Below, piece after piece: positions 2,232-27,381 of a stretch of DNA of 33,258 nucleotides. Position 1 is the first letter of the stretch; every line of letters begins with the position of its first letter. Source of the DNA: a virus. The stretch covers positions 1 to 33,258 of IMG/VR virus record IMGVR_UViG_3300011114_000212; one strand, 5' to 3'. The position numbers were made by a program, and so were the translations under genes. A model generated the notes under the pieces. The model was not told the DNA's origin. It saw only the letters and a list, made by a program, of their open reading frames with translations, and did no database searches.

Positions 2232-4349
2232 ATGCCACTCAAAAAGCTAACTCTCAGACCCGGTGTAAACAAGGAGAACACCCGCTACACCAATGAGAAT
2301 GGGTGGTATGACTGCGACAAAATTCGCTTTCGCCAAAGCACTCCTGAGAAGATTGGCGGCTGGCAACAAATCTCTGCAACCACATTCCTTGGCTACGCTC
2401 GTTCTTTGTGGAACTGGGTGACGCTGGGCAGTTTAAACCTTCTGGGCGTTGGCACAAACCTGAAGTTCTACATAGAGCGTGGCGGTGTGTACAACGACAT
2501 CACCCCAATACGGAAGACAGTAACCCTGACCAACCCGTTTACCGCAACAACAGGTTCTGCCGTCATTGCAGTGGCTGATTCATCCCATGGGTGCATCACG
2601 AACGACTATGTTACTTACAGTGGCGCAGGTATAACCAGCCTTGGCGGGAACATAACAGCCGCTGTTTTGACTGGTCAGTTCCAAGTTACGGTCATCGACA
2701 TAAACAACTACACCATCACGGTGTCGGCCACCGCCAACGCCTCAGACACGGGACACGGCGGTACAGTCGTTACCCAGTACCAGATCAATACTGGGCCTTC
2801 CTTTACTGTTCCTTTGACGGGCTGGGGCACTGGGCCTTGGGGTTATGGCACATGGGGCAATGGGCAAACACAGACCGATGCCATGCGGTTGTGGAGTCAA
2901 AGCAACTTCGGCCAAGACTTGATTTTCGGCCCAAGGGTTGGGCCAATGTATTTATGGAATGCCAATCTGGGTGTTGCCGCATCTGAATTTACAGTGACCA
3001 TTGCAAGTCCTGCGGTCGTTACGTTTGCTTCTATAAGTAGCGTTCCCAATGGAACAGCCATTCAATTCACGACCACCGGGGCATTGCCTACAGGTCTTTC
3101 TGTGGGCACGGTCTACTATGTGGCCGGGTCATCTGGGGGGACTTGTAACCTGACTGCTACCTATGGCGGGGCAAACATCAATACCACTGGAGCGCAGTCT
3201 GGCACTCACTCTGTCTCACCACGGGGTATAAACATTACCAGCTTGGCAAGCGCCTCTGATGCGCCAACCATTCAAAACTATATTTTGGTTTCTGACACAA
3301 GCCGGTTTACGTTTGCATTTGGGACTACCGACTACGGTTCAACCACCCAAAACCCCATGCTGGTGCGCTGGTCTGATCAGGAATCTGTGGTGAACTGGAC
3401 ACCCGCCGCCACAAACCAAGCTGGTAGTTTGTTGCTGTCTCATGGTTCCCAAATCATCACAGCCATGCAGGCCCGTCAAGAAATATTGGTCTGGACAGAT
3501 TCATCCCTGTATTCCCTTCAGTATGTCGGAGCACCCATTGTGTGGGGTTCCCAGCTTGTGGGGGATAACGTATCCATTGCGTCAGAAAACGCAGTGGCTT
3601 ACGCCAACGGCGTGGCTTATTGGATGGGCGTGGACAAGTTCTACAGATATCAAGGAACCACCCAGACTCTGAACTGCGATCTGCGCCAATATGTCTTTGA
3701 GAACATCAACAAGCAACAGTTTGATCAGGTGTTTTCTGGGACAAACGAAGGCTTCAACGAAATCTGGTGGTTCTACTGCTCTGGTACAAGCACTACTGTG
3801 GACAGCTATGTAATCTTTAACTACGCCGAAAACCAAGGCCAAGGGTGCTGGTATTACGGCTCTCTGGCCCGTACAGCGTGGTTGGATTCAGGCTTGCGGG
3901 ATTACCCCCTTGCGGCTACCTATGACAAGAATCTGGTCAACCATGAGATTGGGGTGGATGACAACACCACCGGAACGGCTGTGGCAATTGAATCCTTCAT
4001 CACCTCCGCAGAGTTTGATGTGGATGATGGGGACAAGTTTGGTTTTGTGTGGCGGGTGCTGCCTGATGTGAAGTTTGATGGGTCAACCGCTACCAACCCT
4101 CAGATCACCATGTATCTCAAACCCATGCAGAACTCAGGTTCTGGGTATAACGACCCTCAATCTTTGGGCGGTTCAAGTAACGCAACTGTTACCCGCACTG
4201 CCACAGTCCCTATTGAGCAGTACACGGGTCAGGTCTACATCAGGGTGCGTGGCCGTCAGATGGCAATGGAGTACCGCTCGACTGCACTGGGCGTTCAGTG
4301 GCAAGCTGGCTCGCCCCGTATTGACATCCGTCAGGACGGCAGACGCTGA
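2232..4349 (+). CDS. Large virion structural protein, tail-complex type (705 aa)
   Basis: It starts three bases after the endolysin stop. The N-terminus, KKLTLRPGVNKENTRYTNENG followed by WYDCDKIRFR and a GGW, is a recognisable opening shared by podovirus structural proteins often labelled tail or stabilisation protein. The rest is rich in beta strands, Thr, Ser and Gly, with W/Y-rich blocks (GWGTGPWGYGTWGNGQ near 2820-2870) and no enzyme motif. No signal peptide or TM segment is seen. The size, composition and place between lysis and internal-virion genes support a virion component. Which part of the tail it forms is inference. The next ATG overlaps the TGA (TGATG). Confidence 0.75.
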   Translation: MPLKKLTLRPGVNKENTRYTNENGWYDCDKIRFRQSTPEKIGGWQQISATTFLGYARSLWNWVTLGSLNLLGVGTNLKFYIERGGVYNDITPIRKTVTLTNPFTATTGSAVIAVADSSHGCITNDYVTYSGAGITSLGGNITAAVLTGQFQVTVIDINNYTITVSATANASDTGHGGTVVTQYQINTGPSFTVPLTGWGTGPWGYGTWGNGQTQTDAMRLWSQSNFGQDLIFGPRVGPMYLWNANLGVAASEFTVTIASPAVVTFASISSVPNGTAIQFTTTGALPTGLSVGTVYYVAGSSGGTCNLTATYGGANINTTGAQSGTHSVSPRGINITSLASASDAPTIQNYILVSDTSRFTFAFGTTDYGSTTQNPMLVRWSDQESVVNWTPAATNQAGSLLLSHGSQIITAMQARQEILVWTDSSLYSLQYVGAPIVWGSQLVGDNVSIASENAVAYANGVAYWMGVDKFYRYQGTTQTLNCDLRQYVFENINKQQFDQVFSGTNEGFNEIWWFYCSGTSTTVDSYVIFNYAENQGQGCWYYGSLARTAWLDSGLRDYPLAATYDKNLVNHEIGVDDNTTGTAVAIESFITSAEFDVDDGDKFGFVWRVLPDVKFDGSTATNPQITMYLKPMQNSGSGYNDPQSLGGSSNATVTRTATVPIEQYTGQVYIRVRGRQMAMEYRSTALGVQWQAGSPRIDIRQDGRR

Positions 4350-5008
4350 TGGCTACAGTGTTTACACGGTTCCTCAGAAAGTTTAAAGCACCTGCTTTAT
4401 CCATTCCTCCTATTGACTACGCAAAGGTGGACGAGGATCAGTTTCGCAACATGCTTCGCATCTACTTCAACCAGATTGACAGCACGTTTGGGAACCTGCT
4501 GGATACAACTGGGGGTAAGTATGTCAACTTCCCATACGGAGCATTTTCTTCTGGGGTGGATCAATCTACCACGGCCAACACAGCCACCTTGATGACGCTG
4601 GACACCACGGACTTTGCCAACGGGGTCAGCATTGCTTCATCCAAAATCACGGTGGAGAACGCTGGTATATACAACCTCCAGTTCTCAGCGCAGTTCCAAA
4701 ACACCGACAACCAGATACAAGACATCAGCATTTGGCTGAAGCAAAACGGCACGGACATTCCCGGTTCCACGGGCCTTGTGTCTATCCCTGCCAGAAAGAG
4801 CGCATCAGCCGGGGAAGAGGCTCACCAGATCACCGGATGGAATTACTATGTGTCCATGGCTGAAAACGATTACATTGAAATCTACTGGTCAACCACCAAT
4901 GCCTCAGTGACAATCCAGTATTACGCTGCCTCCACAGGCCCAGTGCGTCCAGCAACCCAATCGGTTGTTGCTACGCTTTCATTTGTTTCAGCTTTACCGG
5001 TAACATAA
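4349..5008 (+). CDS. Beta-sandwich virion protein, C1q/TNF-like fold suspected (219 aa)
   Basis: After a basic N-terminal stretch (FTRFLRKFKAP) and a helix that may anchor it (DEDQFRNMLRIYFNQIDSTFG), the protein becomes an all-beta domain. The order GVSIASSKITVENAGIYNLQFSAQF, then ISIWLKQNG, then DYIEIYWST resembles the jelly-roll of C1q/TNF-like phage proteins, where the A-G-x-Y-x-L-x-F-S strand is typical. Such domains serve as trimeric virion decorations or tail knobs. The call is by pattern only. It is translationally coupled to the preceding structural gene and followed one base later by the next start. Confidence 0.65.
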   Translation: MATVFTRFLRKFKAPALSIPPIDYAKVDEDQFRNMLRIYFNQIDSTFGNLLDTTGGKYVNFPYGAFSSGVDQSTTANTATLMTLDTTDFANGVSIASSKITVENAGIYNLQFSAQFQNTDNQIQDISIWLKQNGTDIPGSTGLVSIPARKSASAGEEAHQITGWNYYVSMAENDYIEIYWSTTNASVTIQYYAASTGPVRPATQSVVATLSFVSALPVT

Positions 5009-5009
5009 T

Positions 5010-7229
5010 ATGGGATGGGATCCTTTTGAAGCGTTTTCAGAGGCTATTGGAACTAACAAAAGTTCAGGGGCACTTGCTCAAGCAACCGGCAATGTATTGG
5101 CCCCCGGCGGTACGATTGCTCCTTGGGCGGGCAATTTAAACCCGCTTAATCCCGACGCATTAGTTGGTCAGATGACCAGAGACGTTGGTGCTTTAAACCC
5201 ATTTAACCCTGATTCTACGGCGGGCAAAGTCGTCAATAATATTGGCAAGGACATGGCCGCAGATCCGGCTAAATGGGTTGCTATTGCGGCGGCTGTGGCA
5301 ACTGGGCAACTTTGGGCCATCCCCTATATTAATGGGGTAGCCGCCCTTACCAAAAAGAATAGCAGCCCCGAAGAGTGGCTTACCGAAGGTGTAAAAGCTG
5401 CGGCCATTCAAATGGGTGGGGAATGGGTTGCTAGTAATATCGGAGGAGTTGGCCCGCAGACCGACATTACTACCGGAGAAACATTTGCTGGCACAGGCGC
5501 GTCCGGCGCTACTGGATCGGCTGCTGCTGGTTCTGTTGCGGGAAACATTAGCCGCAATATTTTTGCAACTGCCGCACGAAAAGGCAGTACGGATATAAAC
5601 AGTGCAACGATCATAACGAACGCGCTATCAACTGAAGGGCTTAAAGAAGCGTTTGCCCAAATACCGGGGTTCTCTGATTTAAGCAAAGACGAGCAATCTG
5701 CGGGTATTAACGCTTTTAAAGTCGCGTTCAATAAAGATTCAAACGCTGCAACTATGTTGCTGAATCAGGGGTTTCAGGCTACCTACAAAGAATTAAACAA
5801 CAAAGCCCTTTGGACAGGATATAACGATTTAAATCAGCAAAATACCGTTACTAACTACGTTATATCTGGCGGGAGTAAAGAAGACGTTGCTGCCTTTGCT
5901 GACCAAGAAACTAAATTAACCGCTGCATATAACGATTACAGAGCGTACACGGTAAAAGGCGACGCCTACGACGAACTTTGGAACCAATACAACGCCGCTA
6001 CTACGTGGGGCGCAAGAAATAAAATAGCCGCGCAAATGCGAACGGCATGGGCGGACCTTCAAAGCCCAGAAACTATTGCGGGGTCAACTGCTGCGTACAA
6101 CAAATACGCCGATACATGGCAATCCACTAACGCTACTCGGTCCCTTGCGTTTACCGCGCTTAATGAAGGCTGGGACAGTATTACCCAGAAAAACGAAGCG
6201 GCAGCGGCGGGTTTTACAACACCTGAAGCCTATGACACATACCTGACGGACAAAAAAGCTCAGGAAGACGCCGCCACTGCTCAAGCCAAAGCCCAAGCAG
6301 ATGCGCAAGCAGCCATAGATGCAGAAGCCGCAAGAGCAGCTCAAGAAGCTAAAGATGCCGAAGAACAGGCTAAGCGCGTTGCTGACTTTAATAAGGATTT
6401 GACCGGTGGTGGGGTTCAAAATTTAGGTAAAGTTGATACAAATACCGATTTCTATGGCAAAGACTCCACAGGAAAGGGAGCCTATAAGTACGATCCAGAG
6501 ACGGGCAACTACACGTTTACAGCCGATGATGGTTCTACAATAACAATTGATGAAGACACTAATATTGTCGGTGTTACAGAAGCTACGGATACGCCTTGGA
6601 CTGGATTAACTGACACTTCCACTGGAAACATTAGGCTACCAAAACTCCCCTCAGGAAAAACTCCAAATGTGAATGTAAACACTATGAAACAAACAGATAC
6701 GGGATTACCAGCCCTCACACCACTTATGGCTGCTGGGATGTTTGGCGCCTTAACTCAAGACCAAGGATCAGGGTACAACCCCGCGCCGGTACAAGCGCCA
6801 AACGTCACCATGAATTGGAACGCCCAACCAGTTCAGGCGCCAGAAAACGGCATATCGTATGGACAGCAATTTTTGAACCCAACTTACTCGACAGGAGAGG
6901 CTGGCGGTGGTTTAATGTCACTTGCCGCCGGTGGAATGACTGGTAAATTTACCACTCTTGGGTCATACTCGGACGGTGGCCGATTGCTTCGTGGGCCTGG
7001 GGACGGGATGTCAGACAATATCCCCGCTACCATAGCCAACAGACAGCCGGCCCGGTTGGCCGATGGAGAATTTGTAATCCCAGCAGATGTTGTGTCCCAT
7101 CTTGGTAATGGATCTACAGATGCTGGAGCAAAGGTCTTGTATGAAATGATGGACCGGGTTCGCAGGGCGCGGACCGGGAAAGCCAAGCAAGGCAAGAAGA
7201 TCATGCCACAAAAGTTTGTACCGAATTAA
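5010..7229 (+). CDS. Internal/tail structural protein with coiled coil and conserved GEFVIPADVVS tail (739 aa)
   Basis: The N-terminal ~190 residues are Gly/Ala/Asn-rich (LNPLNPDALVG, ALNPFNPDSTAGK), suggesting flexible or membrane-interacting segments. An Ala/Gln/Glu-rich coiled coil lies near residues 410-465. The C-terminal ~110 residues hold a pattern I know from phage virion proteins: GGLMSLAAGGM, a Gly-rich spacer, RGPGDGMSDNIPATI, GEFVIPADVVSHLGNGSTDAGAK and a basic helix. No catalytic motif is seen. The gene sits in a run of virion genes, so an internal core or tail-associated protein is likely. A copy of the TGGTAAATTTACCA palindrome falls in its Gly-rich linker (6941-6954). Confidence 0.7.
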   Translation: MGWDPFEAFSEAIGTNKSSGALAQATGNVLAPGGTIAPWAGNLNPLNPDALVGQMTRDVGALNPFNPDSTAGKVVNNIGKDMAADPAKWVAIAAAVATGQLWAIPYINGVAALTKKNSSPEEWLTEGVKAAAIQMGGEWVASNIGGVGPQTDITTGETFAGTGASGATGSAAAGSVAGNISRNIFATAARKGSTDINSATIITNALSTEGLKEAFAQIPGFSDLSKDEQSAGINAFKVAFNKDSNAATMLLNQGFQATYKELNNKALWTGYNDLNQQNTVTNYVISGGSKEDVAAFADQETKLTAAYNDYRAYTVKGDAYDELWNQYNAATTWGARNKIAAQMRTAWADLQSPETIAGSTAAYNKYADTWQSTNATRSLAFTALNEGWDSITQKNEAAAAGFTTPEAYDTYLTDKKAQEDAATAQAKAQADAQAAIDAEAARAAQEAKDAEEQAKRVADFNKDLTGGGVQNLGKVDTNTDFYGKDSTGKGAYKYDPETGNYTFTADDGSTITIDEDTNIVGVTEATDTPWTGLTDTSTGNIRLPKLPSGKTPNVNVNTMKQTDTGLPALTPLMAAGMFGALTQDQGSGYNPAPVQAPNVTMNWNAQPVQAPENGISYGQQFLNPTYSTGEAGGGLMSLAAGGMTGKFTTLGSYSDGGRLLRGPGDGMSDNIPATIANRQPARLADGEFVIPADVVSHLGNGSTDAGAKVLYEMMDRVRRARTGKAKQGKKIMPQKFVPN
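6941..6954. repeat. Dispersed palindrome TGGTAAATTTACCA, copy 1
   Basis: A perfect 14-bp palindrome inside the Gly-rich C-terminal linker of the 739-aa structural gene, read there as GKFTT. It is the core of the longer copies at 25321 and 29531. Confidence 0.75.
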
Positions 7230-9998: not shown

Positions 9999-12900
9999 AT
10001 GCCAATTTATGAATATCAAGGTCAGCAATATGATATTGCTACTGAAGATCATGCTGCAGCTAAAGCCAAAATTCTTAGTTATCTTGAGACTAAGCCGCCG
10101 CTTTTCTTTGCGCCTAAACCAGCAGAAAGACCGTTGGCGCCAACTATGCCTCCCGAGCCAGAGGCTGGCATTGCATCGTTGCCACAGGTAACAAAACCTC
10201 CAGAAACCGCGCCTGCAGAGTCAAAATACTTAACTGCTGCAAAGTATTTGGCAGAAGTTGAGGCAAGAAAACAAGAGTCTCCTGACCGATCTGTTAGTGA
10301 TGCGGTCTTGGACTCTGGCATTACCTTACTTAAGGGAACCATTGGGTTGCCCGAAGCCTTTGTGGGTTTGGCTGACATTCCAAGCCGCGGGGCCATTGGT
10401 AAATTTCTGGAACGTGCGGGGTACAAGCCCAAAGAAGCAAGTGCAATTCTGGACACTTACTTGTCTGAAGCACAGCAAGCAGCAAACCGAAAGGTCAGCG
10501 AGGCCAAAGGCTTTGTCCCGACCATTCAAGCGTCATTACAAAACCCTAGCACGATTGCCACTTCTATTGGCGAATCCCTGCCTCAGATGATTGGTGGTGC
10601 TGGTGTAGCCAGGGGCTTGTTGAAGGCAGCTCCTGCACTAGGCCCGGTCATTGCTGGCGCTCTTGGTGAAGGTATCTTGGGTGCTGGTTCTGCGGCTGAA
10701 AACATTCGCGCACAGAATGCCGATAAATTACTTACCACTAAACAATCATTGGCTGCTTTAGGTAGTGGTGCTGGCACGGCTTTGTTTGGTTTTCTTGGTG
10801 GTCGTGCTGCTCAAAAGTTAGGTTTTGACGATATAGATACTATGCTTGCAGCTGGAGGCAATCGCGGCGGTTCTAAATCAGTTGCTGACTTTGCAAAACG
10901 GGTATTAGGTTCAGGCGTTTCTGAAGGTGCATTTGAGGAAATGCCTCAGTCTGCCCAAGAAACAGTATGGATGAACTACGCTACAGACAAGCCATTGTTT
11001 GAAGGCGTTTCGGAAGCAATGGCTAAAGGCTTGCTTGCTGGCTTTGGAATGGGTGTTGTTGGTGGAGGTCTGGGATCTCTTAAAGAATCTCAGCAAGCTC
11101 AACAGGATAGATATCAGCGCCCAGTTGGTGGTGAAGCTGAGAAGCTTGCCCGGCAGAAAGGGTTCCTCACACCTCAGGCCGAGCCCGGCATTGCTTCGCT
11201 TGTGCCACCGGTCACGCCAAGCGAAGCCCCCATTGTTGCTACGATGAGGATGAATATTGACGGCGAGGAAACTGTAAAAGTAACCCGTCAAGATGGCAGC
11301 GTAGAGTTGGATGGTGTGCAAGTTATAGCGCCTAAACCCCCGGCGCCACCAGCTCAACCACCCGCAACTCCTCCAGCAGCCCAGCAGCCTATGCCTCAGT
11401 CTGAGTCTATGGACAAAGATTTAATGATGCGTGAGCTTATGGGTCAGCCGGCGTCCTCTCAAATCCCGCCAGTCTCACCGGCAAAAACTACTAACATTGA
11501 TGAAGTTATAAAAGCATATCGTGATGATCCAGATGTTCTTGCTGGTTTACTTGCAGACGATTTAAATGGGCAAACACATTTGACTGGTGAAATACGTCAA
11601 ATTGCAGAAACCTATTTAACAGCTGGACCGGACGTAGGACGATTAAAATTAAAAGAAGATATGCAAAACCCAGATAGTGGGTTTAGTCTTTTGGGTTTAA
11701 CACAACCTGAAATGGACAATTACTTTGCAGAATTAGATCAATATTTAACTGAAAAATCTAATCTATTCAAAGCAAAGCCTGCCGCACCGCCTGAGGCTGG
11801 TATAACTTCGGCATTGCCGCCAGCTGAGCCGCCGCCATCCGAAGTTGAAACTGTAGCCAAACCTGTAGAAGAGATGCCCGTATCTGTTGGGCAAATCTCA
11901 TTTGACGCCCATCCTAAAGGTGCAAAGCCAGCTAAAGTGCCACCCCAGGATACAGGTCGTCCGACAGCCGCCCAAATTCACAACGGCATCATTGATGGCT
12001 GGCAAGGGAACGCAGACAAGTTGCCAGAAAATGTTCGCTCATGGATGACTGAAAAAGGTCTAATTGATGGGAAAAACACTTTGCCGTTGGGGCAACGTTT
12101 GTTGGACACCCTAAGGCAGGCCAGCGATCAGCACAAAAATGACCAGATGCTAGGTGTCATGGAGGCTCAAAGGGCCGGGATTGAAGTGCCAGCTCCTACG
12201 CCTTTGACTACAGCTGAAGCCGATGAGGTGGTTGATAAGTTCCTTGCGTCCAACAAGCCAGCTCCAAAGCCTGCGCCCAAGCCGGCGGCTGTTGCGCCAG
12301 CAGCTCCTGTAGAAACGGCTCCTGTTGAAACAGCTGCGCCGGAGATGACCAAAGCGCAGATTGAACAGCGTTTAAAAACGTTGATGATGGAATCTATCCG
12401 GTCCAAGACTGAAGATCCAGCTCGTGATGCTGAGATGGACAGGCTGACAAAGCAGTTGAAAGGTTTGGAAACTGAGAAAAAGCAGCCCACTCCTAAACTG
12501 AAGCCTACGCCTAAGGCTGAAGCTCCGGTAGACACTGCCGAGCTGGACAAAAAGATCAATGCCGCCCGTAAGAAGATGGAAGCTGAGCCAGAAGGTAGCC
12601 CGGCTTACATCCAGCATCAAAGGGAAATGAAAGCCTTTCAGCAGCAAAAGGGCAAAGCAACAGCAAAGCAAGACTTGAATGATGCGCTTGGTGACTTAGC
12701 CATGCTCATGACCAAGAAGGGCCGCTTAAACATTGTTCCTGAAGATGAACAGCAGCTGCTGCCTATCCTGACTAGGGTTATGGATGCGGCATTCCGGCTT
12801 GGTTACTACAAGTTCAAAGACGCCGCCAAATTCACTCTGGACACAATTCGTGAGAAGCTTGGTGACGATGTTGCAGATCAAATCACCTTAGACCATCTTC

Positions 12901-15900
12901 AGGGTTCCTACATTGGCATGGCCGGTAAGTACCAGGACCAAGGCGCTAGCTCCAAGAAGGAAGTTGTCTCTGTTGAATCCATTGAAGAGCTGCAGGCCGA
13001 GGAAGTTGCAGAGGCTGAAGAAGTTCCTGCCGGTGAGATGGACATCAACAACCCATCTGACAAGTATGAAGTAGCTCAAAGAATCTCTGAGTTCTTCATG
13101 GATGAAGGCTCGTTTGAGAACATCAATCAAGCGCGCAAAATGATCGCTGAGCTGACCGGCCAAGAGATCAAGCCTGGAACCCAAGAAGCCAAAGCAGCTG
13201 ATGAGGCTGTAGAGGTTGGCGTGGTTTTGGCCGCGCGGGACATTGTGGCTTCAGGGCGTCAGTCTAAGCTCACAAGCGATCAGATTTATGACCAGTTGGT
13301 TGATCTGTATGAGCGCCAGCCAAACTTGAGTATGCGCAGTTCTACCAGCGTGGCAGAGCAGGCTTACTCCACCCCTGCTCCTTTGGCCTTTGTGGCCTCT
13401 GAGCTGGCTGGGATCACCAATAAAACACCCGTGTATGAGCCCACAGCTGGAAACGGAATGCTGTTGATTGGTGCCAATGAGGCCAACATTACTGCCAATG
13501 AGTTGAACAAAGACCGCTTTGAAATGTTGGAGCGCATCTATGAAGGTGCTGAAGTTACTCAAGGCAATGCGCTAGAAGCAAATATTGCAAACAGTTCCAT
13601 GCCTGTTGTGATTGCCAATCCACCATTTGGCAAAGTGGGAAATATCAGCAACATCGACCATGACATTGCCATAAAGTCTTTGGTTAGCCTGCAGGATGAT
13701 GGCCGTGCTGTCTTGCTTGTTGGCGGGGTACAGGCAACAACTGAAGATGGTCGCCGTGAGGGCTACAGAAACATTACTAAACGTAAATTTTACTTTGAGC
13801 TGTACAACCTTTACAACGTTGTAGACCACTTTACCGTTGGTGGCAGCATGTACTCAAAGCAGGGTGCAAGCTACCCTGTGGATGTAATCGTTATTAATGG
13901 CGTGGGCAAATCATCCCGCGATCTTCCCGCGGCAGATCTGCCACAAATCATTACCTCATATGAACAACTGAAGGAGAAACTAAATGAAAGTCGCTTGGTA
14001 TCCAGAGGAGATCGTGGCACCAGTGGAGCTGACAGCGGTGTTGGTGCCGCAGGGGAAGCTAAGCCGCAAGGAGTGGGTGGAGGCACTGAGCGACCGAGTG
14101 GCGGCGTTAGCGGAGAAGGAGCCGGACCCGCTGCAGGCGGCAAACGTGGCGTGTCGGAAGCTGGACCTACCACAGGTGGACAACGCGAACCAAGTGGGCG
14201 AGGCGCTGGTGAAGTACAACCTGAATCTACTAACAAACCTAAATTGCCAGCAGAGGGAAAACCAGTTCCCAGCCAAGGTGGGCGAGTCGAAGGAAGAGGC
14301 AAGGCAAGCACTGAAGGACGTAAACCTGGAGAGCTGGGTGGAGTTAGCGTTGTCTCAGGTGAACGTGTCGGATCTAGCCTAGCAAGCCGGGCTGACCAAG
14401 AGCAGGAAACTGCAGGCCAAGTCAGCTACACCCCGTTCTCCCAAGCAAATGCCGTGGGCACATTGGTTCCTAGAGCCATGGCCCAGTCCATTCAGGAATC
14501 GATTGCACGTATTGAATCTGACGTTGGTAACGTTGATGAGTATGTGGCAAATGCTTTGGAGATGGAGCCTGAAACACTTCGGGAGCTGTTCTCAGCTGAG
14601 CAAATTGATGCTTTGACCCTAGCTATCCGCAACGCTGAAGCTGGCAAAGGCTTCATCATTGGCGACCAGACCGGCGTGGGTAAAGGCCGTGTTGTTGCGG
14701 CCATGATCCGTTTTGCAATGATCAATGGCAAAGTTCCAATCTTTGTAACCGAGAAGCCCAACCTGTACTCTGACATGATCAGGGACTTGGATGATATTGG
14801 GATGACTGATGAGCTTAGCCTTGATACAGGCAGGCCCAAGATCCTGATGACCAACGGCGATGCAAAGGTTCCATATACGCTGTTGCGTAAATCAGGCGAT
14901 AGGTTTATTGAGAACAACATGACCCTCAGAGCCCCGGCAAAAAAGGCTAAGTTGGATGGTTTGTTGAAGCAAATGGCTGAAAGTGGTGACATTGGAAACT
15001 ACAAAGTAATTTTCACCACATACAACCAACTGCAGACTGTCAAGGGTCAAGCGACAGAGCGCCAACGGTTTGTTAAAGCGATAGGAGCTGATAACTATTT
15101 GATCTTTGACGAAAGCCACAACGCTGGTGGAGCTGGAGAAGGTCAGGCCAGGACTAAAGAGCAACGTGCAAAGGAAAAAGCTGGTGAAAGTATTGTCACC
15201 GGCCGCGCATCCTTTGTGCGTAACCTTGTCCAGAACGCATATGGCACCTTCTTCTCGTCTGCTACATATGCCAAACGCCCAGATGTGATGGACCTGTACT
15301 CCAGCACAGACATGAAACTGGCTGTGCAAAAGATGGACGATCTTGCTGGCGCCATCAAAGAGGGTGGCATTCCAATGCAGCAGATCGTTGCCAATATGCT
15401 GACTCAAGCGGGTCAGTACATTCGCCGCGAACGCACCTTTGCCGGGGTTTCCTATGACACCCAAGAAACAAAGGTAGATAAACAGACCGCGGAAAACATG
15501 GCAACGTCCATGCGCGACATTTTGGAGTTTTCTAGGAACAAAGAAATAGTTGTCAAGGGAATCAAGAAAGAGCTAGACAAAAAAGGCGGCATTGCCAAAG
15601 AGATGGGCGAGAAGACTACGGTCCAAAGCGCCAACTTTGGCTCAACCATGCACAACTTGATTGATCAGATGTTGCTTTCGCTCAAATCGCAGGACTCAGT
15701 TCGCTTTGCGGTGGAGCGTTTGGAGGCTGGTGAAAAGGTTGTTTTGACTGTGTCAAACACCATGGGATCATTCTTGCAAGATTATGCAGACGAAATGGAT
15801 TTAAATATCAACGATACAGTTGATCTGTCGTTTGCAAATTTGTATCTGCGGTATTTGGAAAAGCAGCGTGAAATCACAATTAAGAAGCCCGGCGGTGCAA

Positions 15901-18900
15901 CAGAAAAGTATCGCCTGACTGATAACGATCTTGGGCCTGTCTTGACCCAGCAATTCAATAACATCAAAACGTTTATTGAGAACGCCGGGTTTGGTGCAGC
16001 TCCCATTTCTCCAATTGACTATTTGCACAGTGAGCTGCGTAAGGCTGGTTACAAGACCGAAGAGATCACCGGCCGCACTGTTACGCTGAACTATGACAAC
16101 TACTTTGACAGCAAAAACCCCGTGTTGGCGTCACGCACCGCTACTATTGAGCAACGGGTTAATACTGTTAAAGACTTCAACAGCGGCAAGTTGGATGTTT
16201 TGATCTTGAACCAAGCCGGTTCAACGGGCATATCTTTACACGCCTCTGAGAAAGTCTCAGACAAGCGTAAGCGCCATATGATCCTTGTTCAAGCTGAGAA
16301 GAACATTGATACCCATATGCAAATGCTTGGCCGGGTGCATCGTACCGGGCAAGTAGTTACACCTGCATACTCACAGATGATGGCAGACATACCAGCTGAG
16401 ATGCGTCCAGCTGCGGTGTTGCTCAAGAAGATGGCGTCACTGAGCGCCAATACCACCGCATCACGCAAGTCGGCCGTGGCTGCAGAGGGCGCTGTTGACT
16501 TCATGAATGATTACGGCGGTCAGGTGGCTCAAGAGTATTTGAGGGACAACCCTGAGATATATGAAGCCATTGGCGGCAACCGTATCGTTGAGTTGGTTGA
16601 TGATCCAACTGAAGCAGACGAAAACGATATTCGCCGGTTGACCGGTTACATCCCAATCCTGCCTATTGCTCAGCAAGAAGAAGTCTACAAAGACATCATT
16701 GAGCGTTACAACGATTTGATTGTTCGTGAAGACAGCATGGGAACCAACAAGCTGGAAGCTAAAGCCAGCGACTTGGATGCCATAACCTTGTCTTCCAAGG
16801 CCATTACTGAGGACAAAGGTGACTACCAATCTGTGTTTGCCCAGCCTGCCTATATGGAACAGGTTGATGTCAAGCGCACGGTCAAGCCTTACTCAAAAGA
16901 GGAAGTCCAACAGATGGTCAAGGACAATCTGGATGGAAAGAGCGCCAGCGAAAGCTCAAGTGCTGCATGGCATGACTTGAGTGACCGGTCAAAAGCATTT
17001 GGCGCTGCTGAAGTTGCACGAATGGAAGGGTCTTTAGAGCCTGATCCAATCAAGATTGAGAAATTCAAAAGCCAGCTCAACGCGCAATACACCCACGCCA
17101 AGTCTGTATTGACCAACTACCCAATCGGTACGCCGCTACTCATCAAGAACAGCAAAGGCTTGTTGGTCAAGGGTGTAGTGGTCAATATTGAGAACAAGCG
17201 CAAGACCAAGAATCCTGCGGCTGGGTCTGATTGGAAGATCTCGATTGCTTTGGCTGATGGTGATGCCAAAGTAATACCAATGAGCTTCTCCCAGATTGGG
17301 ACCACATACGACTTCAAGCTTGAGCCTGAAACCCCGTACTTCAATCCTGAGACTCAGCAGTTTGATTACATCCCCATGTTGGACCTGTTCGACAAGGGGG
17401 CGACTGTTCGCCGCGAGAAGCGATGGATGGTGACCGGCAACATCCTGGCTGGTTTTACAGCTGTGGATAACCGTGGTCAGATCATGACCTACACCAAGCA
17501 AGATGGGACTACGGGCCAGGGCGTACTGATGCCCCGTATCTTTGACTTTGAGAAGCAGCAGAAAGACGCGCCGGTCAAGCTGCGTAGCGTCAATGATGTA
17601 CTAAACTTCTTTGAACAGTTTGGCTATGGCTCTAAAGTTACCACTGCCAATGGCATTCTTTCCATAACCAACAAGGGTGGCTCCTACCGATTCACAACCC
17701 CCAGCTCAAAGCGCGAGGGTGGATCGTTCTACCTGGACCCTGACCTGACTGACATTGTTGGCGACTTCTACAAGTCCGGCCAAGCCATGAACGCGCAGAT
17801 CAGCGCACCTGACCGGCTCAAGAATGCCATTCAGTACTTGCTGGCCGAGCGCGGTGAGACACTTATTGCCGGGTCAAACAAAGACGAAGCCCGTAAGCTG
17901 TTTGGCCTAGACACTCCAACCACCAAGCCACCGGTGATTGATGCGCCAATAGCCCAAATCGACTTCACTAACGAAGCTGTAGAGGCGCAAAACGACATAA
18001 TCGAAGCGCAGATAGACAAGAACCTCAGACAAGAGCAGATTGTTTCGCTTGAGAAGTTTTACGAAGCTGATCGTGGATCGGATAAGTTCCTCAACAGTCT
18101 TCGCAATGACATCGTCACCTTTATTACCAAAGGTGCTGAAGCAGTACATGGGAAGATTCGCCAAATTATTCGGGCGTTGTCCAGCGGGTTGTTGTCTGTG
18201 GCGGTTGTTTTCAACCCCATGAACACAAGCCAGATCCAGAACTATGTTCTATCGCCCAAAAATGTGGTGACGGTTGAGCGGCAGGTTTATGCAGCAGTGC
18301 CTGCTTCTGTGGCTGACAAAATGTCACCCGCTGCCAAGTCTGCCTACGAAACAATCCTGCCTGCCGTTAAAGATGATTTGAAGGCACGGGATAAGCTGCT
18401 GATCATCACCGACAAGCCAACTGGAAGAATCTTTGTATTTGACCCAACCGGCAAGCCGATTCTGGACAAGAAGGTTTTGGTTGGAGCTGTCCAGCCAAAG
18501 GCTAGCGATCCAGGCAACTCTGACTATTACAAGGGCAACAACGACAACCCTGCCAACCGCATAACGCCGGCCGGGCTGTTCCAGATCAAGTTGATCGATG
18601 CTGCCAAGGGCGCAGATGAAAAGCGCACCGCTGGCGAATACGACTTTGGAAAAGTGTTTGTCTACGAAGACGAAGGCTACTGGGTTACGACCATGCACTC
18701 AGTTTGGCTGCATGAGAAAGACGCCAAGAAACGAGCAGCTGCCTTAAAGAGTGATGATCCTTTAGATTCTCGCTACTCCTTTGGCTGCATCAACGTAGAC
18801 AAAGAAACGTACAAGTATTTGCTGGACAACCATGAAAAGCAAATTGACGGCGCAATGATGTTTGTAGTCCCAGACAACCAAAAGGCTGTCATGGACTTTG

Positions 18901-21900
18901 TGACCAACAAGCTGGGCATCAAGGATGATCTGACCCGCATGGGCGTTACGCCGGTGACGGAAACAGTTACCGTTCCTGTGCGTGGAGCTGGTCAGATTGC
19001 CGGGGTTGAGCGCAAGGTTGTGGGCAAAGGGGATGAAGGTATTCCCCTGGCAAATTTACCACCTGGGCGTTCTCCTCAGTTGACCATGGGGGCGCAGCTG
19101 GTGCAGTCTGGCGCCATGACCGCCGCTGAGTACGATGAGCTGGTTAACTTTTACAAGCCCATCAAGGCATACGCAGAGGCGATAGAGCCTGCAACCAACG
19201 ATCAGGTCTATGACGCCCTGGACAAAGTCAAGCGTGAGCGCATGGACCCTGAGATTGAGAATGGCACCCCTGTCGGTCTGCGCCTGGATATCCCGGCGTT
19301 TAACCGCAAAGGTGTGTACGTTGTTAGCATCCATCAAAAGGGAACCAAGAGCGGCCCCGGCCGTGTGCTTGGCTACTCCAGCGTTGCCAAAGCGCGGGAC
19401 GTTACCTTTGGCCTGGGCAATGAGCGGGATGCACTGAAGATCGCTGCCGGCGCTGCCAAGGATGCCTTGCAAACTGTTGAGGGCAAGTACGTCAATATCA
19501 GCCCTGAGGCCGCATATCGCCAAGCTCAAGAGGCCATATCTGATCCAGCCTGGGTGCAGGTCGGCGTAGATCCTACCCGCCACTCCTACTTCTACGACAA
19601 GAACAACACCCAACCTGTGGTGGCTGCAGAAGAAGTCATCCAGATCGGGAACATGGTCCTGGCTAAGAACGTCACCTATGGAAGCAAAGATGACTTCTTG
19701 TTTGACCAGGGGCTGAACACTGATGAGAACTTCATCACAGACCGGCAAGACTTGATTCGCCGGTACGCAAAGATTCGTCAACGCCGCGCATACATCCTGA
19801 CCAAGTTTGCCAAGGGCGAAGCAGGATTGAATGAGCAGGCCGAGATGCATGGCCTAGCTTCAATTGCCAAGTCTCTAAAGATGGACATTGACTTGTCCAA
19901 GAAAGAACGCATCAGTGCAGGCAACTTCTTTGCTGATGCTACGGCGCAATGGGATGCTGGAAACATCAGCGGGGATGTGTATGCGGCCATCGAAGCTTTG
20001 TACAAGAAGTACCCGTTTGTGCTGGAGCAGCTCAAGTTTTCAGTACGCCGCCAGCCTGAGGAAAGAAACGCAGCCGGTCAGTTCATGGCCCTACCTCGCA
20101 TTGTGCGTTTGTACAAAGGTACTGTTGGTGTCACAGATCCAGTGACCATTCGTCACGAAATTGTTCACTCGCTTGAGCAAATGATGTCGGCCGAAGCCGC
20201 GGCTGATGTGATCATGGACTGGTCTGACAAGCTTGGCAAAGCCATTAAGACCGACAAGAACCCCAAGGCACAAGCGTACTTCCGTTTGGTCATGGAGTTT
20301 TTGAATAAACCAACTACAGAGTCATACAACGCCGCGATCAGCGCAATGCCAAGTTATGACTACTATCAGTACATCAACCCCTCTGAGTACTGGGCGGTCA
20401 ATGCTGAGAAGCTCATGCAGCGCAAGCTGGGCTCTGGCTGGGACCGTTTTGTCTTGGGTGTTCGTAAGCTGCTGGAAGGCCTGAAGTCAATCTTCGGATT
20501 TGACAACAACTACGCCGTCCACAAAGCCTTTGATGCCATCATGTCGGCCAAGCAGGAGCGCACTACCAAGAGGGTGCTGAACGACTATGTGCTGACTAGC
20601 AAGATGGCTTTGCTAAACCAGAACATTCGCCGCAACTACAAAGGTGGCGCAGCTCCCCTGGCTACGTGGGATTCAGCTGAAGAGTCCAAGATGGACTGGT
20701 GGGTTCGCAAAGTTGCGGATCGTCACGTTGATACCAAGCGGGTGGTTCAAGCTATCACCGAAGAGATCGGGGATATTGGTGACCGTTGGGACCCATACCT
20801 GAACGAGGAATTGTTCCACGGCCGTACATCTACGCAAACGCAAGACTTCCTCAAAGATGAATTGCAGCCACTGCTCAAAGACATGGTGGCCCGTGGTGTA
20901 CAGCTTGATGAGTTTGAGGAATACCTTCACAACCGTCACGCCGAAGCTCGTAACAACTTCATCGCCACGCGCAATCCCAACATGCCGGATGGCGGTTCTG
21001 GAATCTTTAACCAAGAAGCCCAGGACTATCTGTCTAAGCTTGACAAAACCAAGAAGGCCAACTTTGAAGCTTTGGCTGCAGAGATTGACAAGATTGTTGA
21101 TCGCACACAAGAGCTGCTGGTATCTAGTGGCCTGGAAACACAAGAAACCATTGATGCTTGGCGTAAAAACTTGCCCTTCTATGTTCCATTACAGCGGGAT
21201 CAAGATGAGCTGGACTTTGTTAACCCAAGCTCCGGCATGGGCAAAGGCTATTCAACGCGCGGCGGTTTCTCGCGGTCAGCCACTGGCTCACTGAAGTCGG
21301 TTGTCGATATCTTTGGCAACGTTGCATTGCAGCGTGAAAGGGCAATCGTCAGGGCAGAGAAAGCTCGTGTTGGCCGGGCTTTGTACGGCTTGGCAATCAT
21401 GGCGCCAAACCCAGACTTTTGGATGCCCATCAACCCTGAGGCAATCAAGAATAAGAAAAAGTTGCTTGCTGAGCTGCAAGGCCTTGGCCTGTCACCATCG
21501 GACGCAGAGAACATCCTTCTGGAGCCGCGTACAGCTCGTATCGACAAGGTGACCGGGCTGGTTACTTACAAGGTCAATCCTGCACTGCGTAACTCGCCTA
21601 ACGTGTTCCACGTTCGTGTAGATGGCAAAGATCGTTTCATCATCTTTAACCCAGGTGATCCGCGCGCGAAGAACATGGTTGAAGCACTAAAGAACTTAGA
21701 TGCTAACCATGTCAGCGAAGGCCTTGGCACAGTTGCTGAAGCCACAAGGTTACTGGCCGCGATGAACACCCAGTACAACCCTGTATTTGGTGCGTGGAAC
21801 TTTGCGCGGGACGTAAGTGCTGGAACAATTAACTTGGCAAGCACTCCAATTGCTGACCGCAAGAGCGAAGTCTTGTTCAATTCCACTTCGGCATTACGGG

Positions 21901-23345
21901 CGATCTACCGTGACCTGCGCGGCAAAGGTGCAACCACACCGCAAATGCAGCAGTGGATTGACTTGTTTGACCGATTCCAAAAGGCCGGTGGGCAAACTGG
22001 GTATCGTGAGCAATTCAGCCGCAGCAAAGAGAAGGCAACAATCATCCAGCGCGAGTTGGCAAAGCTTGATCGTAGCAATGCTCGTAAAGCAGCTGACGCA
22101 GTATTCAACTGGTTATCGGACTACAACGATGCCATGGAAAACGCTGTTCGTTTGTCAGCGTTCAAAGCGGCCCTTGACTCAGGGATGACCGAAGACCGTG
22201 CAGCTAGCCTTGCAAAGAACCTGACCGTCAACTTCAATCGCAGAGGCCAAATCTCTGCAAATGCCAATGCTTTGTATGCGTTCTTTAATGCATCAGTGCA
22301 AGGCACAGCCAGGATGATTGAGCTGCTCAAGAGTCCGGCCGGCAAGAAGATCATTGCTGGCGGCATCTTGATCGGTGTTATTCAGGCGGTTGCTTTGGCT
22401 ATGGCTGGCTTTGACTCAGATGAGCCGCCAGAGTTTATAAAGAACAAAGGCTTGATCATCCCAGTCGGTGGTGGAAATTATTTGGTAATTCCTATGCCAT
22501 TGGGCTTGAACGTGTTCCCCAACATTGGCCGTCTGATCACTGAATATGCTTTGAGCAATTCCGGCGGGATGACTGGAAAGCGGACGTTGGGCAAGACCAT
22601 CACCAGCATTACTGCAGCGGTGTTTGATGCGTTCAATCCTTTGGGATCAAGCGGCCTTGCGCAAACCATGGCGCCGACATTGTTGGACCCTTTTGTTGCC
22701 CTGTACGAAAACAAAGATGCCTTTGGCCGGCCCATCTCCAAAGAAGATCGGGCAACTTCACCAACGCCTGGGTATCAGCGCAGCCGCGAGACAGCAACCA
22801 CGTTCAGCAAAGGCTTGGCTTATGCAATCAACTATCTGACCTTTGGTGGGCAATACAAGAAGGGCGTCTTTAGTCCAACGGCTGATGACATTGACTACTT
22901 GATTGGTCAATACACCGGCGGTGTGGGCCGGGAAAGCATGAAGTTAATTGAAGCTGCATCAGCCAAAGCCAAGGGTGAAGAGCTGCCGTCTTACCGGGTT
23001 CCATTGGTTGGCAAAGCTTATGGCGAGACAACCACCCCGGCCGCTATTGCTGACAAGTTCTACAAGAACGTCACCATGATGGCTGAGCATGAGAACGCCC
23101 TCAAGATGATGCAAAAGAACCGGGTGAGTACAAGTGAATACTTGAAAGAAAACCCTGAAGCTCGTTTCTACAATCAGGCCAACCAGTTAGAAAACCAAGT
23201 TTCTAAGCTAAACCAGACGAAGAAGAAGCTTCAGGAAATGGAATCAACCCCGGCCAGGGAAGCTCAGATCAAGCGGCTTGATGAGCAAAAGACCAGGATC
23301 ATGTTGAACTTCAACAATAGAATCAAGGCTAGCGAATCGAAATGA
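9999..23345 (+). CDS. Giant polyvalent protein: methylase, strawberry-notch helicase, L,D-transpeptidase, metallopeptidase-like (4448 aa)
   Basis: This single ORF fills 40% of the window; the start has GAGG upstream. Order by residue: short N-terminal domain (1-30); hydrophobic/Gly stretches (~180-270, ~344-360); Pro/Ala linkers to ~850; a conserved lead-in helix domain (~858-978); an N6-adenine methylase with EPTAGNG (~1147) and NPPF (~1207); a Gly/Ser-rich linker (~1329-1470); an SF2 strawberry-notch helicase with Walker A GDQTGVGKG (~1555), DESH (1704-1707), GSTGISLHA (~2074) and QMLGRVHRTGQ (~2106); a YkuD domain (~2798-2961; H2900/H2905, SFGCIN with C2930); HEIVH (3386-3390); and an LPD38-like region (~3700-4190) with a coiled-coil end. 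This is the polyvalent-protein plan described for phages and conjugative elements, whose members are thought to enter the host with DNA and act in defence evasion and envelope passage. The virion role here is inference. Confidence 0.9.
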   Translation: MPIYEYQGQQYDIATEDHAAAKAKILSYLETKPPLFFAPKPAERPLAPTMPPEPEAGIASLPQVTKPPETAPAESKYLTAAKYLAEVEARKQESPDRSVSDAVLDSGITLLKGTIGLPEAFVGLADIPSRGAIGKFLERAGYKPKEASAILDTYLSEAQQAANRKVSEAKGFVPTIQASLQNPSTIATSIGESLPQMIGGAGVARGLLKAAPALGPVIAGALGEGILGAGSAAENIRAQNADKLLTTKQSLAALGSGAGTALFGFLGGRAAQKLGFDDIDTMLAAGGNRGGSKSVADFAKRVLGSGVSEGAFEEMPQSAQETVWMNYATDKPLFEGVSEAMAKGLLAGFGMGVVGGGLGSLKESQQAQQDRYQRPVGGEAEKLARQKGFLTPQAEPGIASLVPPVTPSEAPIVATMRMNIDGEETVKVTRQDGSVELDGVQVIAPKPPAPPAQPPATPPAAQQPMPQSESMDKDLMMRELMGQPASSQIPPVSPAKTTNIDEVIKAYRDDPDVLAGLLADDLNGQTHLTGEIRQIAETYLTAGPDVGRLKLKEDMQNPDSGFSLLGLTQPEMDNYFAELDQYLTEKSNLFKAKPAAPPEAGITSALPPAEPPPSEVETVAKPVEEMPVSVGQISFDAHPKGAKPAKVPPQDTGRPTAAQIHNGIIDGWQGNADKLPENVRSWMTEKGLIDGKNTLPLGQRLLDTLRQASDQHKNDQMLGVMEAQRAGIEVPAPTPLTTAEADEVVDKFLASNKPAPKPAPKPAAVAPAAPVETAPVETAAPEMTKAQIEQRLKTLMMESIRSKTEDPARDAEMDRLTKQLKGLETEKKQPTPKLKPTPKAEAPVDTAELDKKINAARKKMEAEPEGSPAYIQHQREMKAFQQQKGKATAKQDLNDALGDLAMLMTKKGRLNIVPEDEQQLLPILTRVMDAAFRLGYYKFKDAAKFTLDTIREKLGDDVADQITLDHLQGSYIGMAGKYQDQGASSKKEVVSVESIEELQAEEVAEAEEVPAGEMDINNPSDKYEVAQRISEFFMDEGSFENINQARKMIAELTGQEIKPGTQEAKAADEAVEVGVVLAARDIVASGRQSKLTSDQIYDQLVDLYERQPNLSMRSSTSVAEQAYSTPAPLAFVASELAGITNKTPVYEPTAGNGMLLIGANEANITANELNKDRFEMLERIYEGAEVTQGNALEANIANSSMPVVIANPPFGKVGNISNIDHDIAIKSLVSLQDDGRAVLLVGGVQATTEDGRREGYRNITKRKFYFELYNLYNVVDHFTVGGSMYSKQGASYPVDVIVINGVGKSSRDLPAADLPQIITSYEQLKEKLNESRLVSRGDRGTSGADSGVGAAGEAKPQGVGGGTERPSGGVSGEGAGPAAGGKRGVSEAGPTTGGQREPSGRGAGEVQPESTNKPKLPAEGKPVPSQGGRVEGRGKASTEGRKPGELGGVSVVSGERVGSSLASRADQEQETAGQVSYTPFSQANAVGTLVPRAMAQSIQESIARIESDVGNVDEYVANALEMEPETLRELFSAEQIDALTLAIRNAEAGKGFIIGDQTGVGKGRVVAAMIRFAMINGKVPIFVTEKPNLYSDMIRDLDDIGMTDELSLDTGRPKILMTNGDAKVPYTLLRKSGDRFIENNMTLRAPAKKAKLDGLLKQMAESGDIGNYKVIFTTYNQLQTVKGQATERQRFVKAIGADNYLIFDESHNAGGAGEGQARTKEQRAKEKAGESIVTGRASFVRNLVQNAYGTFFSSATYAKRPDVMDLYSSTDMKLAVQKMDDLAGAIKEGGIPMQQIVANMLTQAGQYIRRERTFAGVSYDTQETKVDKQTAENMATSMRDILEFSRNKEIVVKGIKKELDKKGGIAKEMGEKTTVQSANFGSTMHNLIDQMLLSLKSQDSVRFAVERLEAGEKVVLTVSNTMGSFLQDYADEMDLNINDTVDLSFANLYLRYLEKQREITIKKPGGATEKYRLTDNDLGPVLTQQFNNIKTFIENAGFGAAPISPIDYLHSELRKAGYKTEEITGRTVTLNYDNYFDSKNPVLASRTATIEQRVNTVKDFNSGKLDVLILNQAGSTGISLHASEKVSDKRKRHMILVQAEKNIDTHMQMLGRVHRTGQVVTPAYSQMMADIPAEMRPAAVLLKKMASLSANTTASRKSAVAAEGAVDFMNDYGGQVAQEYLRDNPEIYEAIGGNRIVELVDDPTEADENDIRRLTGYIPILPIAQQEEVYKDIIERYNDLIVREDSMGTNKLEAKASDLDAITLSSKAITEDKGDYQSVFAQPAYMEQVDVKRTVKPYSKEEVQQMVKDNLDGKSASESSSAAWHDLSDRSKAFGAAEVARMEGSLEPDPIKIEKFKSQLNAQYTHAKSVLTNYPIGTPLLIKNSKGLLVKGVVVNIENKRKTKNPAAGSDWKISIALADGDAKVIPMSFSQIGTTYDFKLEPETPYFNPETQQFDYIPMLDLFDKGATVRREKRWMVTGNILAGFTAVDNRGQIMTYTKQDGTTGQGVLMPRIFDFEKQQKDAPVKLRSVNDVLNFFEQFGYGSKVTTANGILSITNKGGSYRFTTPSSKREGGSFYLDPDLTDIVGDFYKSGQAMNAQISAPDRLKNAIQYLLAERGETLIAGSNKDEARKLFGLDTPTTKPPVIDAPIAQIDFTNEAVEAQNDIIEAQIDKNLRQEQIVSLEKFYEADRGSDKFLNSLRNDIVTFITKGAEAVHGKIRQIIRALSSGLLSVAVVFNPMNTSQIQNYVLSPKNVVTVERQVYAAVPASVADKMSPAAKSAYETILPAVKDDLKARDKLLIITDKPTGRIFVFDPTGKPILDKKVLVGAVQPKASDPGNSDYYKGNNDNPANRITPAGLFQIKLIDAAKGADEKRTAGEYDFGKVFVYEDEGYWVTTMHSVWLHEKDAKKRAAALKSDDPLDSRYSFGCINVDKETYKYLLDNHEKQIDGAMMFVVPDNQKAVMDFVTNKLGIKDDLTRMGVTPVTETVTVPVRGAGQIAGVERKVVGKGDEGIPLANLPPGRSPQLTMGAQLVQSGAMTAAEYDELVNFYKPIKAYAEAIEPATNDQVYDALDKVKRERMDPEIENGTPVGLRLDIPAFNRKGVYVVSIHQKGTKSGPGRVLGYSSVAKARDVTFGLGNERDALKIAAGAAKDALQTVEGKYVNISPEAAYRQAQEAISDPAWVQVGVDPTRHSYFYDKNNTQPVVAAEEVIQIGNMVLAKNVTYGSKDDFLFDQGLNTDENFITDRQDLIRRYAKIRQRRAYILTKFAKGEAGLNEQAEMHGLASIAKSLKMDIDLSKKERISAGNFFADATAQWDAGNISGDVYAAIEALYKKYPFVLEQLKFSVRRQPEERNAAGQFMALPRIVRLYKGTVGVTDPVTIRHEIVHSLEQMMSAEAAADVIMDWSDKLGKAIKTDKNPKAQAYFRLVMEFLNKPTTESYNAAISAMPSYDYYQYINPSEYWAVNAEKLMQRKLGSGWDRFVLGVRKLLEGLKSIFGFDNNYAVHKAFDAIMSAKQERTTKRVLNDYVLTSKMALLNQNIRRNYKGGAAPLATWDSAEESKMDWWVRKVADRHVDTKRVVQAITEEIGDIGDRWDPYLNEELFHGRTSTQTQDFLKDELQPLLKDMVARGVQLDEFEEYLHNRHAEARNNFIATRNPNMPDGGSGIFNQEAQDYLSKLDKTKKANFEALAAEIDKIVDRTQELLVSSGLETQETIDAWRKNLPFYVPLQRDQDELDFVNPSSGMGKGYSTRGGFSRSATGSLKSVVDIFGNVALQRERAIVRAEKARVGRALYGLAIMAPNPDFWMPINPEAIKNKKKLLAELQGLGLSPSDAENILLEPRTARIDKVTGLVTYKVNPALRNSPNVFHVRVDGKDRFIIFNPGDPRAKNMVEALKNLDANHVSEGLGTVAEATRLLAAMNTQYNPVFGAWNFARDVSAGTINLASTPIADRKSEVLFNSTSALRAIYRDLRGKGATTPQMQQWIDLFDRFQKAGGQTGYREQFSRSKEKATIIQRELAKLDRSNARKAADAVFNWLSDYNDAMENAVRLSAFKAALDSGMTEDRAASLAKNLTVNFNRRGQISANANALYAFFNASVQGTARMIELLKSPAGKKIIAGGILIGVIQAVALAMAGFDSDEPPEFIKNKGLIIPVGGGNYLVIPMPLGLNVFPNIGRLITEYALSNSGGMTGKRTLGKTITSITAAVFDAFNPLGSSGLAQTMAPTLLDPFVALYENKDAFGRPISKEDRATSPTPGYQRSRETATTFSKGLAYAINYLTFGGQYKKGVFSPTADDIDYLIGQYTGGVGRESMKLIEAASAKAKGEELPSYRVPLVGKAYGETTTPAAIADKFYKNVTMMAEHENALKMMQKNRVSTSEYLKENPEARFYNQANQLENQVSKLNQTKKKLQEMESTPAREAQIKRLDEQKTRIMLNFNNRIKASESK
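13984..14382 (+). CDS. Overlapping gene nested in the giant ORF (132 aa, function unknown)
   Basis: ATG 13984 has a textbook Shine-Dalgarno (AAGGAG at 13971-13976, seven-base spacer) and an in-frame TAA immediately before it. The frame (+1 relative to the giant ORF) stays open for 132 codons to TAG at 14380-14382. The product looks like a folded, helical, acidic protein with Trp, Tyr, Cys and Leu spread normally (MKVAWYPEEIVAPVELTAVL at the start, ESWVELALSQVNVSDLA at the end). The giant frame over the same bases encodes only Gly/Ser/Arg/Pro-rich linker. Third positions of the nested frame are mostly G or C. I do not recognise a family. The overlap covers exactly the linker between methylase and helicase domains. 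Confidence 0.7.
   Translation: MKVAWYPEEIVAPVELTAVLVPQGKLSRKEWVEALSDRVAALAEKEPDPLQAANVACRKLDLPQVDNANQVGEALVKYNLNLLTNLNCQQRENQFPAKVGESKEEARQALKDVNLESWVELALSQVNVSDLA
19048..19061. repeat. Degenerate copy of the dispersed palindrome
   Basis: TGGCAAATTTACCA differs from the core by one base. It lies in the linker of the giant protein just after the L,D-transpeptidase region (read as LANLPPG). It may be chance or a decayed copy. Confidence 0.35.
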
Positions 23346-25765: not shown

Positions 25766-25959
25766 ACGGTTCCTTCTCGGTTCTTTTTAAACTCAAAGTC
25801 ATTGCGATACTCGCTTGGTGCTGTCCAGCCGTACTTTCTCCATGTTTGTTGTACGTCCGAACCCTTTTTGTAAACAAACGCTGCATCCAGTATTCCCCAG
25901 TTTTTAATTGGGGCTTTACCTGCTTTAACGATGTTCAACTTCTTCTTTAGCAAAAACAT
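25762..25959 (-). CDS. Small basic protein between exonuclease and ERF genes (65 aa)
   Basis: ATG 25959 is chosen because AAGGA lies six bases upstream; the overlapping ATG at 25965 has its SD too close. The product (MFLLKKKLNIVKAGKAPIKN, later WRKYGWTAPSEYRNDF) is basic with several aromatic residues. No family is recognised. Its position between nuclease and annealing genes and its ATGA overlap with erf suggest an accessory role in the same process. Confidence 0.65.
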   Translation of the reverse strand: MFLLKKKLNIVKAGKAPIKNWGILDAAFVYKKGSDVQQTWRKYGWTAPSEYRNDFEFKKNREGTV

Positions 25960-25961
25960 AA

Positions 25962-27379: not shown

Positions 27380-27381
27380 GG

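Follow-up and report, generated by a model that had tools for sequence, protein, structure and literature searches.

The window analyzed here, a 33,258-nucleotide stretch of viral DNA (IMG/VR record IMGVR_UViG_3300011114_000212), carries a giant gene that encloses a second, complete open reading frame (ORF) in another frame. Is this inner ORF a gene, and if so, what might its product do and how did it come to lie there?

A complete ORF at the methylase-helicase junction

The giant outer gene (positions 9999 to 23345, plus strand) encodes a polyvalent-type protein of 4448 aa. Part of an N6-adenine methylase domain with an NPPF motif was found at positions 13350 to 13643 (plus strand; PHROG methyltransferase match, aa 1118 to 1215). 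Downstream, also on the plus strand, lies a Strawberry-notch-type helicase, with its N-terminal module at 14580 to 15491 (AAA_34, aa 1528 to 1831) and its C-terminal module at 16059 to 16544 (Helicase_C_4, aa 2021 to 2182). At 13983 to 14382 (plus strand), the outer frame encodes a low-complexity linker, which stays open and whose residues show no detectable purifying selection. A first reading, made from the sequence only, had placed this linker between the methylase and helicase domains, and the domain matches agreed with it. Its description of the linker as pure Gly/Ser/Arg/Pro was slightly overstated, the region being rich in G, S, E, V, A, R, and P (Gly, 26%). The contrast that it drew with a less low-complexity remainder of the protein was too sharp, as other parts, mainly aa 1 to 1000, are likewise Pro/Ala rich.

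Polyvalent proteins include a methylase-helicase dyad, some members of which have Strawberry-notch-type helicases (Iyer et al. 2017, PMC5512222); its suggested role is the protection or marking of invading DNA (PMC5512222). The outer gene has the defining order of this dyad, an adenine methylase with an NPP(Y/F) motif located N-terminal to an SF2 helicase, and it resembles the described cases in that the methylase is fused to an SF2 (Strawberry-notch) helicase in a giant multidomain protein. The published description (PMC5512222) makes no mention of an other-frame gene embedded at the junction. No LPD36 domain was found among the Pfam matches at an E value of ≤1, and LPD38 lies near the C terminus of the giant protein. 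By analogy with the biology of polyvalent proteins, the giant protein may be a virion protein. It also contains an L,D-transpeptidase (YkuD) domain (window positions 18399 to 18830, aa 2801 to 2944), which is odd beside DNA-acting domains. Elsewhere in the window, a recombination set made up of an Erf-like annealing protein, a PD-(D/E)XK exonuclease, and a GIY-YIG endonuclease is found at 25052 to 27403 (minus strand), and an HNH endonuclease is found at 29501 to 30361 (plus strand).

The inner ORF extends from 13984 to 14382 on the plus strand (ATG at 13984 to 13986, TAG at 14380 to 14382) and has 132 codons plus the TAG in the +1 frame of the giant gene. A Shine-Dalgarno (SD) sequence, AAGGAG (13971 to 13976, plus strand), is located 7 nt ahead of the ATG, and the same letters encode part of SYEQLKEKL, which is invariant in the outer protein. 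An inner-frame TAA (13981 to 13983, plus strand) abuts the ATG. The well-spaced AAGGAG, the ATG, the 132 codons, and the stop had all been noted in the sequence-only reading, with exact coordinates. As in an overprinted gene, a complete ORF with its own start and stop is thus contained in an ORF of a different frame. A frameshift fusion of the methylase with the inner protein was considered and disfavored, since a stop is found directly ahead of the inner ATG in 41 of the 44 close homologues.

When the giant protein residues were re-coded with the gene's own codons, the +1 frame stayed open in 15.6% of the trials. On this genome alone, the inner ORF is therefore not beyond chance (P about 0.16). 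This agrees with the possibility that the ORF is no gene and merely follows from a linker that is rich in GC and poor in T, and so do two other observations: the antisense frame of the same region is mostly open too, by composition, and in darB of phage P1, +1 ORFs as long as 177 codons have arisen by chance. P1 DarB, an anti-restriction protein carried in the virion, has a methylase and then an SF2 helicase in one polypeptide (PMC5512222). Its helicase matches SNF2-rel_dom, whereas that of the window matches Strawberry-notch models. We rejected darB as a further carrier: its +1 ORFs are Arg/Ser rich, have no SD, give no match to the inner family, and resemble a coding sequence read out of frame, and no linker is encoded there by the outer frame. 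An antisense gene in the window was also rejected; the antisense frame is often nearly open, but its stops vary among relatives.

A scan of IMG/VR with the outer protein gave 21 relatives with 57 to 71% identity. The +1 ORF was present in all 21, with 130 to 134 codons, the same ATG, the same AAGGAGAA, and no internal stop, and the AAGGAG-ATG start was identical in 22 of 22 close homologues. A search for the inner protein in phage and metagenome sequences, as the sequence-only reading had proposed, did find homologues: a scan of IMG/VR with an inner-protein profile returned 45 contigs, where all 45 matches lay inside a long ORF in the -1 frame and 44 were complete. An SD of at least 5 nt preceded 73 of the 113 inner starts, compared with 17 of the 820 start codons that served as controls. 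Judged by comparison across the relatives, the inner ORF is beyond chance. A tblastn search of the inner protein against the INPHARED phages gave no match. A first scan of bacterial genomes with the inner profile was also empty, because patterns from close phage relatives miss divergent copies; a methylase-helicase scan of bacterial genomes did reach the divergent copies.

Selection in the two reading frames

In the overlap, the mean identity was 61% for the inner proteins versus 49% for the outer residues, and it was 69 to 71% in the outer flanks. Pairwise differences at the third position of the outer codons (the second of the inner codons) fell from 0.56 to 0.22 in the overlap. This was the only dip along the aligned outer gene (9999 to 22000), and further overprinted genes in the giant gene were rejected on this ground. 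The dip recurred in the L135-L147 phages (0.11 versus 0.40/0.45), in Bacteroidales (0.28 versus 0.48/0.50), and in three cyanobacterial groups (e.g., 0.20 versus 0.57/0.54), and it was absent from a Bacteroidetes clade without the ORF.

For independent close pairs, the outer pN/pS was 1.67 in the overlap versus 0.32 and 0.25 in the flanks, and the inner pN/pS was 0.48; these ratios and the classes of changes below come from simple counting, with transitions given a fixed weight, rather than from a tree-based codon model. Among inner-nonsynonymous changes, those that were outer nonsynonymous were not rarer than those that were outer synonymous (0.112 versus 0.089). Stop-creating changes were strongly depleted: inner-silent changes making an outer stop had a value of 0.007, versus 0.235 for other inner-silent changes, and no outer stop was found in any embedded case. 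When the inner protein was re-coded at random, a mean of 7 outer-frame stops appeared, compared with 0 observed (33 representatives). Based on the pN/pS pattern and the depletion of outer stops, these counts indicate that the inner frame is under purifying selection as a protein and that the outer frame is a free-form linker in which selection only keeps stops out. The outer pattern fits a linker that is translated but unconstrained. The comparison of synonymous-site variation in both frames, suggested at the outset, thus located the constraint in the inner frame. An RNA element was rejected as the source of the constraint; there was no Rfam match in the window, and the codon-periodic pattern fits a protein.

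The selection pattern, as counted here, already contradicts an ORF that is a mere by-product of linker composition, because the inner-frame constraint is position specific and is found in several independent clades. The conserved start, SD, and stop, the well-predicted fold, and the stand-alone homologue (see below) also speak against such a by-product, which we regard as extremely unlikely. Almost certainly, then, 13984 to 14382 is a real gene that encodes a protein and is contained entirely in the methylase-helicase gene, with its own putative ribosome-binding site. The sequence-only reading had named three outcomes as incompatible with a gene: no homologue in any frame, frequent inner-frame stops in close relatives, and purifying selection in the giant frame only. 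None of them was encountered, as homologues exist, the inner frame has no stops, and selection is not restricted to the giant frame.

Two Vibrio loci (L192 and L194) have flanks that are ~98% identical and an inner gene that is ~11% diverged at the nucleotide level, through either local recombination or rapid change.

Distribution and origin of the inner gene

Further loci were sought with a more diverse methylase-helicase alignment (A7), which reached Cyanobacteria, Desulfovibrio, Alphaproteobacteria, Bacteroidetes, Vibrio, Nitrospira, and others, as well as more phages. An iterated profile seeded with the close phage relatives was run on all ORFs of the loci, and it matched 203 ORFs. These came from 202 loci, some of them redundant, and all but one of the ORFs were embedded in a long ORF at the junction. 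Among 159 largely nonredundant methylase-helicase loci, 115 had the family, 33 had another +1 ORF of at least 85 codons, and 11 had none. One of the 33 (L214) was a split-gene artifact, which left about 32 ORFs of similar size at the same place, some of them backed by position and length only. A Thalassospira lucentensis plasmid (L268) has a giant gene of ~18.5 kb with an inner-like +1 ORF at 3827 to 4243, and the methylase-helicase gene of Hydrococcus rivularis (L199) looks decayed by frameshifts.

Profile homologues were found at the same site in Cyanobacteria, Alphaproteobacteria, Desulfovibrio, and others. Profile comparison indicated that the phage groups are homologous (97.6% probability); the L135 group was weak in the direct comparison and was reached by the iterated profile. 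Between the Bacteroidales inner ORFs and the main family, no sequence homology was detectable by profile comparison. From this distribution, the arrangement is ancient, with one embedded family occupying this junction across many phyla, on chromosomes and plasmids as well as in phages. The inner gene is retained in cyanobacterial plasmids and chromosomes, and hence it does not serve a need restricted to the virion.

One stand-alone homologue was identified in the 292 cyanobacterial genomes searched, with 4 of 7 matches inspected in context. This copy, in Coleofasciculus sp. LEGE 07092 (L203:1328-1846, minus strand), has 172 codons (i-Evalue, 4.6e-17); 3 kb away, on the other strand, is a methylase-helicase gene with an embedded copy of its own.

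As to the origin, it had been suggested that a methylase gene, a small gene, and a helicase gene were once separate and became fused through the loss of stops. The inner protein, unlike the outer linker, is well folded, so that the inner frame looks like the informative one, and the linker is shorter when the inner gene is absent (median, 72 versus 177 aa); both points would suit such a fusion. However, four outgroup genes, on plasmid or phage elements of Acinetobacter, Cupriavidus, and Vogesella, are already fused and have no inner ORF. In the rooted tree, whose root rests on distant, long-branched outgroups, the presence of the inner ORF needs two changes, the best reading being that the ORF was gained once after the fusion and lost once in Bacteroidetes. 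Moreover, split methylase and helicase genes occur only within one Bacteroidetes clade that has no inner gene, and no arrangement of a separate methylase, a small gene, and a separate helicase was found among the loci. An origin by stop loss thus seems quite unlikely, and there is moderate evidence that the methylase-helicase fusion predates the inner gene. In L214, L217, L218, and L272, all from Bacteroidetes, the methylase and helicase genes are separate and slightly overlapping, without an inner gene.

The shorter linkers in genes without the inner gene make the linker look like the shadow of the latter. The proposal that the linker is a by-product of a conserved inner gene therefore largely stood, with the constraint in the inner frame, but the fusion across a small gene that was to explain it did not. 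By codon usage, both frames scored alike, which does not show which of them is older. The inner gene may have arisen de novo in the linker or been inserted there.

Predicted fold, possible role, and known embedded genes

AlphaFold2 gave confident models for the inner protein of the window (pLDDT, 92.6; pTM, 0.86) and for a Bacteroidales inner protein (pLDDT, 90.3; pTM, 0.84). The order of elements is alike in both: a strand, a short helix, one or more strands, a long helix of 17 to 18 residues, more helices, a strand, and C-terminal helices. A common fold is suggested for the two proteins by this order in models that were not superposed. The window protein represents a new family with a predicted compact beta-alpha fold. 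Neither model had a PDB fold match at an E value of ≤0.001, and the window's model had none in BFVD. No sequence match to the inner protein was found in Pfam, PHROG, NCBIfam, PADLOC, or PDB; weak Pfam (SRCR; E, 0.02) and PHROG (E, 0.06) matches varied between members and were taken as chance. About 34 inner residues are invariant, reaching the very C terminus.

We propose that ribosomes would initiate within the giant mRNA at the inner AAGGAG/ATG, just past the methylase part, and produce a mostly helical protein of ~130 residues. This protein would serve the methylase-helicase as a dedicated partner or regulator; it might, for example, hold, load, or restrain the enzyme until its action on incoming DNA. 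The inner gene tracks the Strawberry-notch methylase-helicase and is found almost nowhere else, which suggests that its product works on or with that enzyme; a function tied to the methylase-helicase is thus likely, although the co-occurrence could also stem from the overlap hindering separation. No catalytic motif, domain match, or fold match was found for the inner protein, so its biochemical role was guessed from this association, and a physical partner or regulator is about evenly balanced against other roles. As a whole, the proposal of an embedded gene, internal initiation, and a partner or regulator is the one we favor with some confidence. The methylase-helicases of the Vogesella, Cupriavidus, and Acinetobacter elements and of one Bacteroidetes clade have no inner gene, and therefore it is not essential to every such enzyme. 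A broader version, to which we give slightly less than even weight, is that the inner protein would be an obligate partner with a new fold, a third, hidden component of Strawberry-notch systems that is encoded only in the linker and kept since before the phage, plasmid, and chromosomal lineages found across many bacterial phyla diverged, the linker existing because of it.

The inner protein might instead be an independent counter-defense or take-over protein with host targets that merely rides in the carrier gene. Giant polyvalent proteins and their neighborhoods are rich in conflict proteins (PMC5512222), the inner protein is small and changes fast in sequence, and the Vibrio pair differs far more in the inner region than in the flanks, as in an arms race. 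However, the gene has no other genomic setting, its sole stand-alone copy lies beside a methylase-helicase gene, and it is retained in cyanobacteria, where the carrier is a modest gene of 1500 to 2450 codons; we consider this alternative unlikely. It is less likely still that the peptide does little and that internal initiation tunes translation of the giant message, through ribosome traffic or pausing between folding domains. A strong SD and a start codon exactly at the domain boundary would suit such tuning, but a traffic signal does not need an inner pN/pS of 0.48 over the whole length, and the confident fold, the invariant residues up to the C terminus, and the stand-alone copy would all be superfluous. 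A dedicated partner or regulator of the methylase-helicase thus remains our preferred reading, and it suggests that the methylase-helicase systems used in phage-host and plasmid-host conflict have a component that was overlooked.

Several phage genes are embedded in others, such as Rz1 in lambda Rz and, in phiX174, E in D and B in A. Like them, the inner gene is a complete shifted-frame gene with its own start site. Unlike them, it is carried by an enzyme gene that occurs across many phyla, on chromosomes and plasmids and in phages; within the overlap, the outer frame appears unconstrained save for stops, and the predicted inner fold is new. The inner protein has no hydrophobic N terminus, and its carrier is a methylase-helicase rather than an Rz-like gene, so it does not resemble an Rz1-type spanin. 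A known HNH endonuclease gene also lies out of frame within a methylase gene; that one is a homing-type endonuclease, whereas the inner protein has no nuclease family match and its position in the linker is conserved across phyla. Most known examples of same-strand embedded genes come from small viral genomes, where coding space is tight, whereas the inner gene occurs in several phyla, on chromosomes and plasmids and in large phages. A linker of low complexity that joins two enzyme domains can thus be the shadow of another gene, and third-position dips in linkers offer a simple screen for more such genes. If the linker does exist because of the inner gene, this would reverse the usual view of overprinting.

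The inner gene has been missed by standard annotation, and no report of it was found in the open-access literature, the scope of our search. It was unannotated in the two annotated cases checked, Bacteroides phage BS-TP4 and the Picosynechococcus plasmids, the plasmid gene table being incomplete. In plasmid pAQ6 of Picosynechococcus PCC 7002 (L267), the unannotated embedded ORF lies near 5001 to 5504, and a second N6-methylase gene and a RelE-like toxin gene are found upstream.
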